A stretch of DNA of 64,000 bases from a virus. The stretch is taken from IMG/VR virus record IMGVR_UViG_3300013126_000027, positions 1-64,000 of that record; one strand, 5' to 3'. The translations under genes and the position numbers were made by a program. Each line of letters starts with the position of its first letter. Position 1 is the stretch's first letter. Shown here in pieces: positions 46,238 through 51,491 of this stretch. The notes below the pieces were generated by a model, which was given only the letters and a program-made list of their open reading frames with translations, ran no database searches and was not told where the DNA came from.

Positions 46238-46821
46238 GCCAACGAAACGCAATTGCAATACTGCGGCGAATGTTTGCGGAGGGCATCGACATGACCTCTC
46301 GCAAGGCTACGAATTGGTTGAGAGACAATTTGACAAATGTGGGAGCAATCAATCCCGAAAGCGTCATAAAGACATCAGGTGAGTCCGTCACATTTCAAAC
46401 TGGCAAGATTTACCTTTTTGGATACAACCCCAAAACAGGACAGGACTTGAAATACTATGATCGTTTTCCTCTTGCTCTTGTGGTTTCTTACACCGAAGAC
46501 GGGTTCTTGGGACTCAATTTTCATTACCTCCACCCAAATGATCGCGCCAGATTTTTCAACAATTTGCAGACCTATGTAAATGATGAGGAATTTGACAGAA
46601 ATCCCAACGCCATCTTCAGCCTGAACTATGGAACCCTGAAGGCAGCAGGAGCCTTGAGATACTACAAGCCGACCATCAAGAGATACTATTACAAGAACAT
46701 CGTGACAAAAGTGACGGAAGTACCTCCTCTTTACTGGAAGTTCATGCTCTTCCTTCCGCTTGATCGGTTTGCAAAGGTGATCAAAGAACAAGTCTGGAAA
46801 GAATCCAGAAGGAAACTCTAA
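46234..46821 (+). CDS. Conserved T4-like virion-cluster protein (unassigned)
   Basis: 195 residues from ATG at 46234, which overlaps the gp4 stop (ATGA); a longer frame starts inside gp4. The N-terminus is basic and helical (NAIAILRRMFAEGIDMTSRKAT). The middle FQTGKIYLFGYNPKTGQDLKYYDRFPLAL and DGFLGLNFHYLHPNDRARFF form a pattern I recognise from T4-like environmental phages. There, proteins of this place are variously annotated as DNA end protector (gp2-like) or hypothetical. I cannot settle which. The basic C-terminus (KVIKEQVWKESRRKL) fits DNA contact. Confidence 0.7.
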   Translation: MSQRNAIAILRRMFAEGIDMTSRKATNWLRDNLTNVGAINPESVIKTSGESVTFQTGKIYLFGYNPKTGQDLKYYDRFPLALVVSYTEDGFLGLNFHYLHPNDRARFFNNLQTYVNDEEFDRNPNAIFSLNYGTLKAAGALRYYKPTIKRYYYKNIVTKVTEVPPLYWKFMLFLPLDRFAKVIKEQVWKESRRKL

Positions 46822-47852
46822 TGTCAGTCTTCCAAACAGCAGTAAACCTAATACCAAGTTACCTGTCATCGTTTTTTCCGCCAAATGTCGGGCAAACCAA
46901 GTTCAGTCAGGACTCGGCATGGCAGAGTTACATACATGATGCGGCATCGAATGGATATGCGCTGCCAAATCGTTTCATGGTTTTCATTGAAAGTCCTTGG
47001 CTAAACGACAAGTTTGGCTTTGCACAGACCAACTTCGACAAAAGGCTTTCGTTTCGTTGCTGGAGCGTAAATGTACCTTCGCAGTATTTCTCGAAATTGG
47101 ACAGAGATATCGCCGGTCCGATTCGCAAAGTACCCTACACGGCAACATTTGACGAGGAACTTGCCATGCAGTTCTACTGCTCACCTGACATGGCCGAATT
47201 AGGGTTGTTCAGGAAGTGGATGGATTCCATAGTAGACCCTGTTTCTCGCTATGTTTCCTTCTACGATGACTTTGCGAAGGATACGAGGGCAACTCTGCTG
47301 TTCATACCAAACAATTACAAGACAATTGCAGACATTCAGTCTGCATATTCACAAAACAAGTTAAGAGGGCTTCGTTTTACCGAAGTGTATCCAGCAAACA
47401 TAAGCGTGAATGGTGGAACTGTCGAATGGGCAAGTTCAACCAAGCCCACATTCTTGAGAATCGGCTTTGCATTCAGAGAGGCGGTGGACATCACCACATA
47501 CGACAAGATGGTCAGTCAGCAGTTGCAGGACTTGGCTGACATTGCAGCAAACCCGTTGTCGAGCAATCTCACCAAGTTCATGCAGGATCAGGGTGCTGAA
47601 AACATCGGCATAGACGGCTCGGTGATCAGGGGCAGCGGAAGCCAAGGCATACTTGCAAACAGCGAGATCGCACAAACAACCATTGCAACAAAGACAGGAA
47701 ATCTTCCTGCAAATGGTCAGGCTTATGCAGATGGAGGCACGGTGAAGACCATAGACTTGGGAGGATTGGAAACATTGCAAGCGGGAGGCGGAAACACCAA
47801 CTTCCCTGCCGGTACTCCGTTTGCGAACAATGGTCAGGTTTCCGTTGCGTAA
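46821..47852 (+). CDS. gp54: Baseplate tail-tube initiator gp54-like
   Basis: 343 residues (T4 320). gp54 is a tube-fold protein that, on top of gp48, seeds gp19 polymerisation. PNRFMVFIESPW, then a SVNVPSQYFSKLDRDIAGP strand pair, FDEELAMQFYCSPDMAELGLFRKWMDSIVDP and a C-terminal FTEVYPANISVNGGTVEWAS match the tube-protein pattern also seen in gp19. The last 120 residues are Gly/Asn-rich and probably flexible. TAATG couples it to the upstream gene. It ends 34 bases before gp26. Confidence 0.83.
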   Translation: MSVFQTAVNLIPSYLSSFFPPNVGQTKFSQDSAWQSYIHDAASNGYALPNRFMVFIESPWLNDKFGFAQTNFDKRLSFRCWSVNVPSQYFSKLDRDIAGPIRKVPYTATFDEELAMQFYCSPDMAELGLFRKWMDSIVDPVSRYVSFYDDFAKDTRATLLFIPNNYKTIADIQSAYSQNKLRGLRFTEVYPANISVNGGTVEWASSTKPTFLRIGFAFREAVDITTYDKMVSQQLQDLADIAANPLSSNLTKFMQDQGAENIGIDGSVIRGSGSQGILANSEIAQTTIATKTGNLPANGQAYADGGTVKTIDLGGLETLQAGGGNTNFPAGTPFANNGQVSVA

Positions 47853-47886: not shown

Positions 47887-48612
47887 ATGGCTATACCGAT
47901 TATTGCTACCCCAACCTATGAATTGACCCTCCCCTCCACCAAGAAGGTGATAAAGTATCGTCCTTTCCTTGTCAAAGAGGAAAAACTCCTGCTTCTTGCA
48001 ATGGAGTCAAAAGACCCAAAGCAGATTCAAAGCACAAGCAAGGATGTCATCAAGAACTGCACATTCGGTGAAATTGATGTCGAAACATGCCCTCCCTTTG
48101 ACCTTGAGTACATCCTGCTTCAATTACGCATTCGCTCGGTGGGAGAAAAAGTCTCCACGAAGATAAAGTGCCTAAAGTGTGATGAGCCTAATGTCGTGGA
48201 GGTTGATCTTCTTTCCGTAAATGTCTCGGCAAGCGAGAATCACAGCAATACCATCAAGTTGTCGGAAAAGATGGGAGTCATAATGAAGTATCCCAACATG
48301 GGCAACGAGGACTTGCTTGCGGCGGGAGACAAGGAAAAGGATGACCCTGTGCAGAACGCCGAACTTTCCATGAAATTGATCGCTTCATGCATTGAGGTAA
48401 TCTATGACGGTGACAAGACCTATCAAACCAAGAATTTCAGCAAGGAAGAAGTCATGGAATTCATAGAGAATATGTCGCAGGGAATGTTCCAAAAGATCAT
48501 CAAGTTCTTCCAAGACATGCCCGCTCTGCGTAAGGAAGTGGAATTCAAGTGTGCAAAGTGCGATACTGACAACAAGATCACCATCAGAGGTATTCAAGAT
48601 TTTTTTACCTGA
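47887..48612 (+). CDS. gp26: Baseplate hub assembly protein gp26 (chaperone-like, zinc ribbon)
   Basis: 241 residues (T4 gp26 208), of the T4_baseplate family; it assists hub assembly. It contains two CxxC knuckles, Cys95-Cys98 (CLKC) and Cys222-Cys225 (CAKC), which could bind one zinc. The N-terminal YRPFLVKEEKLLLLAMES is a conserved family start. The last codons are GAT TTT TTT ACC TGA. With the T of GAT this gives a T_TTT_TTT slippery heptamer at 48600-48606, and the -1 frame continues into the 63-codon ORF. Position, just before the tape measure, is that of tail-assembly chaperones in other phages. Confidence 0.9.
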   Translation: MAIPIIATPTYELTLPSTKKVIKYRPFLVKEEKLLLLAMESKDPKQIQSTSKDVIKNCTFGEIDVETCPPFDLEYILLQLRIRSVGEKVSTKIKCLKCDEPNVVEVDLLSVNVSASENHSNTIKLSEKMGVIMKYPNMGNEDLLAAGDKEKDDPVQNAELSMKLIASCIEVIYDGDKTYQTKNFSKEEVMEFIENMSQGMFQKIIKFFQDMPALRKEVEFKCAKCDTDNKITIRGIQDFFT

Positions 48613-48663
48613 TCATGCATTATGAGAGTCTGTCGAATGTGTTACAGACCAACTTCATAATGC
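48586..48663 (+). promoter_or_regulatory. Probable programmed -1 ribosomal frameshift signal (gp26 / 63-codon ORF)
   Basis: Three elements in series. A Shine-Dalgarno-like AGAGG lies at 48586-48590. A slippery heptamer T_TTT_TTT lies at 48600-48606 in the correct phase, 9 nt later. Ten nt further is a stem of 9 bp, GCATTATGA (48617-48625) with TCATAATGC (48655-48663), enclosing a second stem of 6 bp, GTCTGT (48628-48633) with ACAGAC (48644-48649). The zero frame stops at TGA 48610-48612; the -1 frame is open and reads YLI then the 63-codon ORF. The fusion would be 306 residues. The stem begins at the G of the ORF's ATG. Confidence 0.78.
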
Positions 48664-48806
48664 TGAAGGAACACAACTTCAGTCTCACGGAGATAGAGAA
48701 CATGATTCCGTGGGAACGACAGATTTACATAGGACTGCTGATAAATTATGTGAAGGAACAGAAGGAGAGAATGGATCAAGAACAGGCTTCGATGAAACAA
48801 GGGTAA
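48615..48806 (+). CDS. 63-codon ORF, -1 frame extension of gp26 (gp51-like place)
   Basis: 63 residues, helical and hydrophobic with NVLQTNFIMLKEHNFSLTEI, then MIPWERQIYIGLLINYVKEQ. A short protein of this look (PWERxIY) follows gp26 in many T4-like environmental phages. The ATG at 48615 has no ribosome site and its G begins a strong RNA stem, so independent initiation looks poor. Reading through the -1 frameshift, or coupling to the gp26 stop three bases upstream, are the possible routes. The layout corresponds to the GT extension of lambda-type tail chaperones. Expressed alone or only as fusion is not known. Confidence 0.75.
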   Translation: MHYESLSNVLQTNFIMLKEHNFSLTEIENMIPWERQIYIGLLINYVKEQKERMDQEQASMKQG

Positions 48807-48821
48807 GCCTGAAAAAGGACA

Positions 48822-51491
48822 ATGGCAGAGAACAATCCCCTCGAAAATTCACAGATGGACAAGACCCTTGGTGACATAAAGCAGCAAGGTACTGTCACCA
48901 ACAAGATTTTGGGCGACATATCAAAGCACGAAAACGACACGGGGGAAATGATTGGTGACTTGCTGAAGAACGAGAAGTCCCTCCTTGACACTATGAAGGA
49001 GAACAACAAGAGCATCAAGGAGATTGCCGATTCAAACAAGAGAATGGCTCATGCCGCCGAAGAGGAAAAGAGAGAAGCAAAGACGGCAGGGGGTGCTGGT
49101 ACCGTTGGATTTGGAAAGCAGTTGCAAGCCTCCATGAAGGAGGCGATGCGCGAAATCAGCCCAATGTATGCAGGGGCAACAAATCCGATAATGACTTTCT
49201 TGAAGGGGAGCAGCCTTGCAGGGGGAAACAAAGGTCTTCTTGGATTGGGTGGAGCGGGTGGTGCAAGCGGTCAGGGAGCAGGAATACTCGGAACGATTGC
49301 CGGTGGAGGAGCAGGATTTCTGATCGGATTCCTGACTCCCGTGGTAAAGGCGTACCAAACCTTGTTCAAGTCTTTCTACACCGGACTTTCGCCCGTATTC
49401 AATGTCTTGGGAAAAGCAGGAAGAGCGGTCTTTCAGACCTTTATGGAGACATTTCCCCTTGCCGATGAATTGAAGGGAATTGTCAAATACATCGGAGAAT
49501 CTTTCAGCATTCTTGGAAAAATGCTGCTTGGTGCAATGAAGTCAATAGGCGGCGTAGTTGATTACGGTCTCGTCATGTTGAGAAGCGTGTTTGGAAGCAG
49601 CATACCAAGGCTCAAGACCATATTGGGTTTCTTCGGTGACATGTTCACGGGCATAGGAGGAAAGTTGCGGGCTTTCCTCAGCGCAGACGGCATTCTCTAC
49701 GGCACCATGAATGCCATAGAGAAATTGTTTGGTTACGGGGCAATAGATCCATTCGTAAAGGCTTTTGAGTTCGCCGGAAAGTTGGCAAAGTTCTTGCCCT
49801 TCCTTACCGTGATTCCCACCGCAATAGAGACCGTGGTCTCGGCATTCAAGAAGTTTGAGACTGAAGGATTCAAGGGAGTCTTCAAGGCAATCATGGTTGG
49901 ACTGCTCAAAGGCGTTGCCGCGTTCTTCACCTTGGGACTCTCTGATTTTGCCTTGGACTTTGAAAAAATGTATTCCACCTTGTCTGCATCCTTGGACGGA
50001 ATATTTTCGGAGATATCAGGGGTTGTCAACCTGTTTGTTGATGTATTCAAGTGGCTGTTCGGAACAATGATGCAACTGTGGAACGGGATACTCAAGCCGA
50101 TATTCGTGTCTCTCTATGAAGATGCACTAAAGCCGATATTCGAAGCATTGAGTGCGCTCGGAGATTTTGCAATGATTCTCTTCGATGTGGTGTTCACGCT
50201 GCTCAAGCCGGTGATTGCCATAGCCAGATTTGCATTCAAGTTGATTTTTGAAGTCGTAAAGTTGGTTTACGATTTTGTGATCTACCCGATCATTTCCCTG
50301 CTTGTGCCGATCTTCAAAGTCCTGTTCAAGACAATAGGAATATTGCTGACTCCCGTGACTGCCTTGTTTCAAATATTGACCATAGTCGTTGGGAACTTCT
50401 GGAACAAGTTCCTCAAGCCCATCGTGAACTTCATAACTGACCTGTTCTCGGCAGGAGCCGAAATGGGTTCGTTGTCTGAACTCATAGGAAATGCATTGTC
50501 ATATTGGGGAGAAGTGATAAAGGCAGGATGGGACTTCATCATCGGTTACTACGAAATGATCACGGACACCATAGCCGATGCAATGATGTTCTGGTGGGAA
50601 CTCATAACCGACACATGGAACTATGTCTATGGACTGTGGGACAAGTTGACCGACATGCTTGCATATGGAATGCTGTGGTGGTGGGATGCTATAAAGTCCG
50701 CATGGAATTATGTGTACAATCTTTGGGATCAAACCACAAGTCTTCTTGCTGACGGCATGTTGATATGGGCAGGATGGATAGAACAAGCATGGGACTATGT
50801 GTACGGAGTATGGGATTCAACAGTAGGGTTGCTTGCCGATGGAATGCTCATATGGGCAGGATGGATACAGGATGGTTATGATTATGTCGTTGGCTTGTGG
50901 GAAGACCTGACTGATGCATTGGCATACGGAATCCTGTGGTGGCACGAAAAGATAACGGCAGCATGGGATTATGTCGTTGGCTTGTGGGAATTTGCAGTTG
51001 AAGCATTGGCAGAATCCTTGGAGCCTGTTGTTTCGCCCATAATGGAGTTCTTTGACTTCGTTGGAAACTTGTTTGGTCAATTGAAGCAATATGCATCAAG
51101 CATTCTTTCATTCATACCTGGCATGGGCGGTGGGGAAGAGACTTCCAAGGAAGTGAAATCGCCGGTTCTTGCGACAACTGCTTCATCAGGAAGCAAAATC
51201 CTAGAGGAAAGACGGCGGGAAAGAGAAGAAAGAAAGAAGCGACTTTCTGAGATGATTGCAAGGGACGAGGCTCAATACGGTGTTGAAGGTGCTGCTGCCA
51301 TGAGACAAAACCTCCGACAGCAGATGTCAGCGGGGGGAGGAGCGGCAGGAGGAGTTGGCATCACCAACATCGTCAACAATGCACCGACCACGAACATCAG
51401 CGGTGGCGGTGGAGGAGCGGCAATACCTGTTCCTCTTTCACCGAATCCGATCCGCCATGCCGATCCGACTCGCGCATTGATTTCAAATTAA
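48822..51491 (+). CDS. gp29: Tail tape measure protein (gp29-like) with Trp-rich repeats
   Basis: 889 residues. It sets tail length inside the tube. The first 90 residues are a charged coiled coil (KSLLDTMKENNKSIKEIADS). Then comes a Gly-rich stretch and a long run of hydrophobic, probably membrane-active segments (FLKGSSLAGG to IYPIISLLVPIFKVLF). From about 570 to 740 there are six tandem 29-residue units with a pattern WxYVxGLW...LAxGML.WW. The C-terminus is charged (RRREREERKKR) and then Gly-rich. T4 gp29 has 590 residues. It follows the gp26 chaperone region directly and ends at a terminator. Confidence 0.85.
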   Translation: MAENNPLENSQMDKTLGDIKQQGTVTNKILGDISKHENDTGEMIGDLLKNEKSLLDTMKENNKSIKEIADSNKRMAHAAEEEKREAKTAGGAGTVGFGKQLQASMKEAMREISPMYAGATNPIMTFLKGSSLAGGNKGLLGLGGAGGASGQGAGILGTIAGGGAGFLIGFLTPVVKAYQTLFKSFYTGLSPVFNVLGKAGRAVFQTFMETFPLADELKGIVKYIGESFSILGKMLLGAMKSIGGVVDYGLVMLRSVFGSSIPRLKTILGFFGDMFTGIGGKLRAFLSADGILYGTMNAIEKLFGYGAIDPFVKAFEFAGKLAKFLPFLTVIPTAIETVVSAFKKFETEGFKGVFKAIMVGLLKGVAAFFTLGLSDFALDFEKMYSTLSASLDGIFSEISGVVNLFVDVFKWLFGTMMQLWNGILKPIFVSLYEDALKPIFEALSALGDFAMILFDVVFTLLKPVIAIARFAFKLIFEVVKLVYDFVIYPIISLLVPIFKVLFKTIGILLTPVTALFQILTIVVGNFWNKFLKPIVNFITDLFSAGAEMGSLSELIGNALSYWGEVIKAGWDFIIGYYEMITDTIADAMMFWWELITDTWNYVYGLWDKLTDMLAYGMLWWWDAIKSAWNYVYNLWDQTTSLLADGMLIWAGWIEQAWDYVYGVWDSTVGLLADGMLIWAGWIQDGYDYVVGLWEDLTDALAYGILWWHEKITAAWDYVVGLWEFAVEALAESLEPVVSPIMEFFDFVGNLFGQLKQYASSILSFIPGMGGGEETSKEVKSPVLATTASSGSKILEERRREREERKKRLSEMIARDEAQYGVEGAAAMRQNLRQQMSAGGGAAGGVGITNIVNNAPTTNISGGGGGAAIPVPLSPNPIRHADPTRALISN
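50530..51051 (+). repeat. Six tandem 87-base coding repeats in the tape measure
   Basis: Six in-frame units of 29 residues each, starting WDFIIGYYE, WNYVYGLWD, WNYVYNLWD, WDYVYGVWD, YDYVVGLWE and WDYVVGLWE. The two central units (about 50700-50875) are the most alike, also at DNA level. Ends are approximate. Confidence 0.85.

Follow-up and report, generated by a model that had tools for sequence, protein, structure and literature searches.

Gene order and sequence features at the gp26 locus

The window, by which we mean the whole stretch of DNA that was analyzed, comprises 64,000 nucleotides (positions 1 to 64,000) of a 66,029-base IMG/VR virus record (IMGVR_UViG_3300013126_000027) from a T4-like phage, and no phage DNA nearly identical to it was found. 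On the plus strand, genes for a DNA end protector, a tail tube-like protein, gp26, a 63-codon open reading frame (ORF; gp51, see below) and the tape measure protein follow one another. The relevant features are as follows:

46821..47852, plus strand: tail tube-like gene, directly upstream of gp26 (phrog_45, tail tube, E=1.2e-15)
47887..48612, plus strand: gp26-like gene, 241 aa, short form of a predicted tail assembly chaperone (PF12322, phrog_150)
48586..48590, plus strand: internal Shine-Dalgarno (SD)-like AGAGG, 9 nt before the heptamer
48600..48606, plus strand: slippery heptamer T_TTT_TTT in phase with gp26 (T_TTT_TTN conserved in relatives)
48606..48806, plus strand: −1 extension carrying the gp51 domain, 66 codons plus TAA (phrog_634; gapless alignment in 90 loci)
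48610..48612, plus strand: gp26 zero-frame stop codon TGA, 3 nt past the heptamer
48615..48617, plus strand: ATG at codon 4 of the extension, where the 63-codon ORF opens; a possible secondary, coupled start
48617..48663, plus strand: hairpin beginning 10 nt past the heptamer (outer stem 48617-48625/48655-48663, inner stem 48628-48633/48644-48649)
48822..51491, plus strand: gene for the 889-aa tape measure protein, immediately following (phrog_1272, tail length tape measure protein, E=5.9e-18)

The gp26 protein matches Pfam T4_baseplate (PF12322, E=4.6e-62) and phrog_150, baseplate hub (E=1.3e-68). The PF12322 profile is matched over its full length with 210 bits against a curated cut-off of 24.5, which places the protein in that family, and 1504 phage records match gp26. 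In relatives, an ORF of at least 200 aa begins no more than 700 nt downstream at 71 of the 75 loci where this could be tested. As a separate observation, zinc-ribbon models are weakly matched by gp26 relatives, among which pairs of cysteines also recur (C95/C98 and C223/C226 in the window); together these suggest metal-binding ribbons in the chaperone.

The 3′ end of gp26 reads CAA GAT TTT TTT ACC TGA. An earlier note, made from the letters of this DNA, had proposed a −1 frameshift signal here, and its core elements are indeed present: T_TTT_TTT lies in the correct phase at 48600-48606, followed in the zero frame by ACC TGA, and AGAGG (48586-48590) precedes it with exactly the 9-nt spacing described. 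The predicted fusion length of 306 residues was confirmed by reading the −1 frame from 48606 (YLI-MHYESLSN...), which stays open across the 63-codon ORF until the stop codon at 48804-48806. Slippage would thus yield QDFF-YLI-MHYESLSN at the junction of 240 residues with 66 more.

The −1 extension carries gp51 and often has no start codon

The 63-codon ORF (48615-48806, plus strand) matches phrog_634, annotated “baseplate hub assembly catalyst,” that is, gp51 (E=6e-21). It also matches positions 240-277 of the phrog_150 profile (E=7.4e-5), so some PHROG members of the gp26 family already contain the fused domain. For comparison, we collected 80 IMG/VR loci encoding gp26 relatives, plus named phages from INPHARED. 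Ninety distinct loci have T_TTT_TTC or T_TTT_TTT in phase, tabulated as 91 rows because one of them (L099) is the window again.

Wherever gp51 could be aligned, its frame is −1 relative to gp26. When the fusions are made in silico, the junction falls in one alignment column, and from the slip site onward the alignment of the extension is gapless (90/90 loci). The residues conserved directly after the Phe-Phe pair are R/L/Y-I/L/V-x-L/M-S-H-x-S/T-L, and conservation of the extension therefore starts at the slip site, ahead of any possible start codon. In S-PM2, one predicted peptide across the FF|R junction is SFFRISMFYNNLENYYR.

In 50 of the 91 rows, neither the first eight codons of the extension nor the part of the open frame upstream of them contains an ATG, GTG or TTG, so that gp51 cannot begin there as a complete separate protein at a standard start codon; an early ATG is missing in 60. 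The window belongs to the minority with an ATG. This ATG had been said to lack a ribosome site, which proved correct: there is no SD sequence at initiation distance, and AGAGG, 24 nt off, is too distant to serve gp51 initiation. None of the public records that we examined annotates a joined gp26-gp51 coding sequence.

These observations bear on the alternative that gp51 is a small separate gene with its own ATG, translationally coupled to the gp26 stop, and that the heptamer is incidental. In the window the ATG lies only 2 nt after the TGA, so coupled reinitiation could add free gp51 there, and TGATG or TAATG overlaps occur in several relatives, among them Mendera, Cr30, RHph_I34, phiM9 and schizo-T4 vibriophages. 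However, coupling does not account for the rows in which the first codons of the domain include no start codon, nor for conservation that begins before any possible start, and it leaves both the heptamer and the SD-like motif unexplained. We therefore regard it as improbable; pure reinitiation, in particular, is rejected, or at least made less likely, by the results on codon use, start codons and alignment.

Conservation of the slippery heptamer

T_TTT_TTN is found in phase at all 99 gp26 loci examined from outside the T-evens and the Ackermannviridae (loci that are not fully independent, owing to shared ancestry, most being only 35-50% identical in protein). In addition to the 90 loci above, this total includes L016, L084 (Rhizobium phage RHph_I34), L097 (Pseudoalteromonas phage XG4) and phiM9, as well as L101, Melnitz-2, a second schizo-T4 vibriophage, Aeh1 and phage 65. 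The distance from the heptamer to the gp26 stop in relatives is 0, 3, 6 or 24 nt. The earlier note had named, as evidence that would count against a frameshift, relatives keeping both proteins with no heptamer or no −1 phase. When these were sought, every relative with adjacent domains proved to have the −1 phase, and T_TTT_TTN is present in all of them but the Ackermannviridae.

A run of T residues could also act during transcription, with mRNAs that contain one extra U fusing the two frames. The site is indeed a homopolymer, and one added base would yield the same fusion. However, in 71 of 91 rows the heptamer has C as its seventh base, which leaves a run of only six T. Efficient transcript slippage in bacteria needs longer runs, of about 8-9 or more. 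Furthermore, a codon-phased T_TTT_TTY together with an upstream SD-like motif is a signature of ribosomal slippage, and we consider the transcriptional route quite improbable. Across the window as a whole (1-64000), TTTTTTY runs are depleted (11 found vs. 40 expected from dinucleotide shuffles).

The heptamer might instead be kept only because gp26 must end in Asp/Ser-Phe-Phe, the −1 ORF being a coincidence. This would account for a Phe-Phe pair that is nearly invariant in gp26, but not for a choice among synonymous codons that is fixed in spite of background usage. TTT serves as the first Phe codon in 91/91 rows, compared with 71% TTT elsewhere in the same genes, and the base before it is T in 91/91, against a synonymous expectation of 66%. 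Other Phe-Phe pairs in the same genes behave differently (of 89, 39 begin with TTT and only five make the heptamer). In four loci (L016, RHph_I34, XG4 and phiM9) the second Phe is replaced by Leu, yet the six Ts are retained as T_TTT_TTA or T_TTT_TTG, so it is the DNA that is conserved and not the peptide. Given also that the −1 extension is a recognized domain, an explanation at the peptide level is very hard to credit, being already refuted by the codon, Phe-Phe pair and residue-change tests. Finally, homopolymers are error-prone, but a single continuous gene split by a sequencing or assembly indel can be dismissed, because the same split is seen in ~100 independent records, including Aeh1, S-PM2 and Cr30.

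Elements that may stimulate slippage

The SD-like motif recurs across the family. The energy of pairing with the anti-SD sequence peaks at −17 to −11 from the heptamer, where the mean is −5.8 kcal/mol (background +0.4), and energies at or below −5 are reached in 53% of loci, compared with 2.5%. At this site GAG is used for Glu 29 times vs. 10.8 expected from synonymous choice, GGG for Gly 23 times vs. 3.7, and CTG plus TTG for Leu 40 times vs. 18.6. This codon use indicates selection at synonymous positions for the motif 9 nt before the heptamer. Its spacing is that of bacterial −1 stimulators.

The downstream stem fared differently. A 9-bp stem enclosing a 6-bp stem, 10 nt past the heptamer, had been proposed, and in the window it stands: the minimum-energy fold of 48607-48670 is that hairpin (−20.5 kcal/mol, z = −3.6, with none of 200 shuffles as stable). 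It did not hold up as a conserved element. In the closest relative (L001), 8 of the 21 stem pairs of the window are broken, and the mean folding z near the slip site is only −0.8 family-wide, with similar dips elsewhere. The suggested check for conservation in related phages thus came out in favor of the heptamer and against the stem, which we rejected as a family feature. Some relatives also have strong hairpins (S-PM2, Milchi, Cr30 and SH-Ab 15599), formed by a different stem from that of the window, and in many others a downstream hairpin is absent or weak, so it is at most an optional stimulator. A search of Rfam gave no relevant match.

T-even phages, Aeh1 and Ackermannviridae

The T-evens (wV7, Merlin) and an Acinetobacter relative carry gp51 as a gene of its own, ~250 codons long and divergently transcribed, and the slip site is absent from their gp26, which has GAA TTC TTT or GAA TTT GTT. 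The profile of the fusions matches T-even gp51 end to end (residues 13-283 vs. 7-247, E=4.7e-20, hhalign), and the N-terminal 203 residues of T-even gp51 are in turn matched by T-even gp26 (E=2.7e-15). From the end-to-end match, T-even gp51 looks like a stand-alone version of the long form, in agreement with the account of Vladimirov et al. 2022 as relayed by a citing paper (PMC10885494) and with the published remark on truncated cyanophage gp51 that follows.

Cyanophage gp51 has been described as only ~20% of the length of T4 gp51, lacking about the first 200 residues, and gp51 was reported missing from Aeh1 (PMC3037559). In Aeh1 (L116, 1001-1180) we find it as an unannotated −1 extension of gp26 that follows GAT TTT TTC; this extension has no early start codon, its first ATG lying 50 nt past the gp26 stop. 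The short cyanophage gp51 and the apparent absence from Aeh1 would both be explained because the remainder is gp26, joined by slippage.

In the Ackermannviridae and related Vibrio phages (L090, L110, L111, L113, L091 and L112), a gp51-like domain (..MPWHL..) follows gp26 in the −1 frame, often with no early start codon. Instead of T_TTT_TTY, these phages have (A/G)_ATT_TTC_ATT_TAA or A_CTT_TTC_AAG_TAA at the junction, which may be a different slip signal. Single-protein scans with gp26 of Cr30, Mendera and the T-evens added few new viral contigs.

Proposed mechanism and function

We consider it very probable (roughly 93%) that gp51 is translated as a continuation of gp26 through programmed −1 ribosomal frameshifting, in which case gene 51 would usually be the tail end of gene 26 and not an independent gene. 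The signal and its phase, their conservation, the loss of gp51 starts, the synonymous selection on the SD-like motif and the match between T-even gp51 and the fusion are all observed in sequence. The majority of ribosomes would read gp26 to the TGA, giving the 241-aa short form. Some would pause over T_TTT_TTT while AGAGG, 9 nt upstream, pairs with 16S rRNA, and in the lineage of the window the hairpin 10 nt downstream may contribute. Both tRNA-Phe would then slip back by one base, and a further 66 codons would be read to give a 306-aa protein with the gp51 domain at its C terminus. Slippage at a useful frequency, its efficiency, and the chaperone function are what we infer from these features.

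The short and long forms are most likely tail assembly chaperones that act on the tape measure protein, as lambda gpG and gpGT do. This role is suggested by homology to T4 gp26 and gp51, by the location just ahead of the tape measure gene, by the pairing of a short with a long form and by the 2022 work cited below. T4 gp26 and gp51 are listed as hub assembly chaperones; T4 gp51 is essential for assembly, absent from the virion and described as of function unknown (PMC3004832). The gp26 structure model is a confident one (pLDDT 92). A Foldseek search with it reached the HK97 chaperone 2ob9 only at an insignificant E=2.0, and a PDB sequence search for a chaperone fold gave no significant match; Pfam TAC_12 (PF12363) matches one of 54 relatives, below its cut-off.

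A broader reading, which we put forward tentatively and think rather likelier to be wrong than right, is that frameshifting is the general and ancestral route to gp51 in T4-like phages (cyanophages, pelagiphages, and Rhizobium, Caulobacter, Aeromonas and Vibrio phages), T4 gene 51 having arisen once by duplication of a gp26-gp51 cassette and loss of the slip site in gene 26. If so, the name “baseplate hub assembly catalyst” is wrongly applied to what is the C-terminal domain of a long tail assembly chaperone, and several hundred genomes lack a gp51 annotation or carry an incorrect one. The frameshift itself, apart from this broader reading, would tie T4-like phages to the common short/long tail chaperone scheme and predicts an action of both gp26 and its extension on the tape measure protein. 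The slip site also supplies a rule for re-annotating gp26 and gp51 in marine and soil T4-like phages.

Comparison with known systems

The T4-like tail assembly chaperone genes gp26 and gp51 were identified by Vladimirov, Gautam and Davidson (2022, Virology 566:9-15), a study known here through papers that cite it (PMC10885494, PMC12846349), one of which credits it with polyT frameshift signals in these genes (PMC12846349). The novelty of a gp26/gp51 frameshift is reduced accordingly. The earlier note knew of none described for T4-type gp26/gp51; the citation points to such signals, and the proposed unification of gp26/gp51 with lambda-like chaperones is, according to the citing papers, a link already made in 2022. 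The proteins are the same as ours. The title of that study stresses a mechanism other than frameshifting, whereas we see the frameshift arrangement in every sampled lineage outside the T-evens, the Ackermannviridae junction being different. In the literature examined, which represents the 2022 study through its citing papers, we did not find stated the universal T_TTT_TTN, the synonymously selected SD-like motif or the start-less gp51.

The tail assembly chaperones of Vandenendeviridae and Andersonviridae have a conserved −1 frameshift with GTTTTT (PMC12846349). They resemble gp26 in that the short gene has a polyT slip site at its 3′ end, the −1 frame is open in every genome, and the ORF that follows is in most cases annotated as a hypothetical protein in its own right. 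They belong to other phage families, and the parts of that paper available to us do not mention an upstream SD-like motif.

Programmed frameshifting in tail assembly chaperones is the mechanism of lambda gpG/gpGT and P2 gpE/E′, and the window has the lambda-type G/GT arrangement, with a short and a frameshift-extended form encoded directly before the tape measure gene. The lambda slip heptamer is G_GGA_AAG. The gp26 heptamer, in contrast, is T_TTT_TTY, no sequence similarity was shown, and here an internal SD-like stimulator is conserved. In this last respect gp26 recalls E. coli dnaX, in which an SD-like element lies ~10 nt upstream of the slippery heptamer A_AAA_AAG, with a hairpin downstream, and frameshifting gives the shorter product. 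The upstream SD-like element, a slippery heptamer and, as a predicted fold, a downstream hairpin are shared with the window, whereas gp26 differs in that its heptamer is T_TTT_TTT and the shift would give the longer product.
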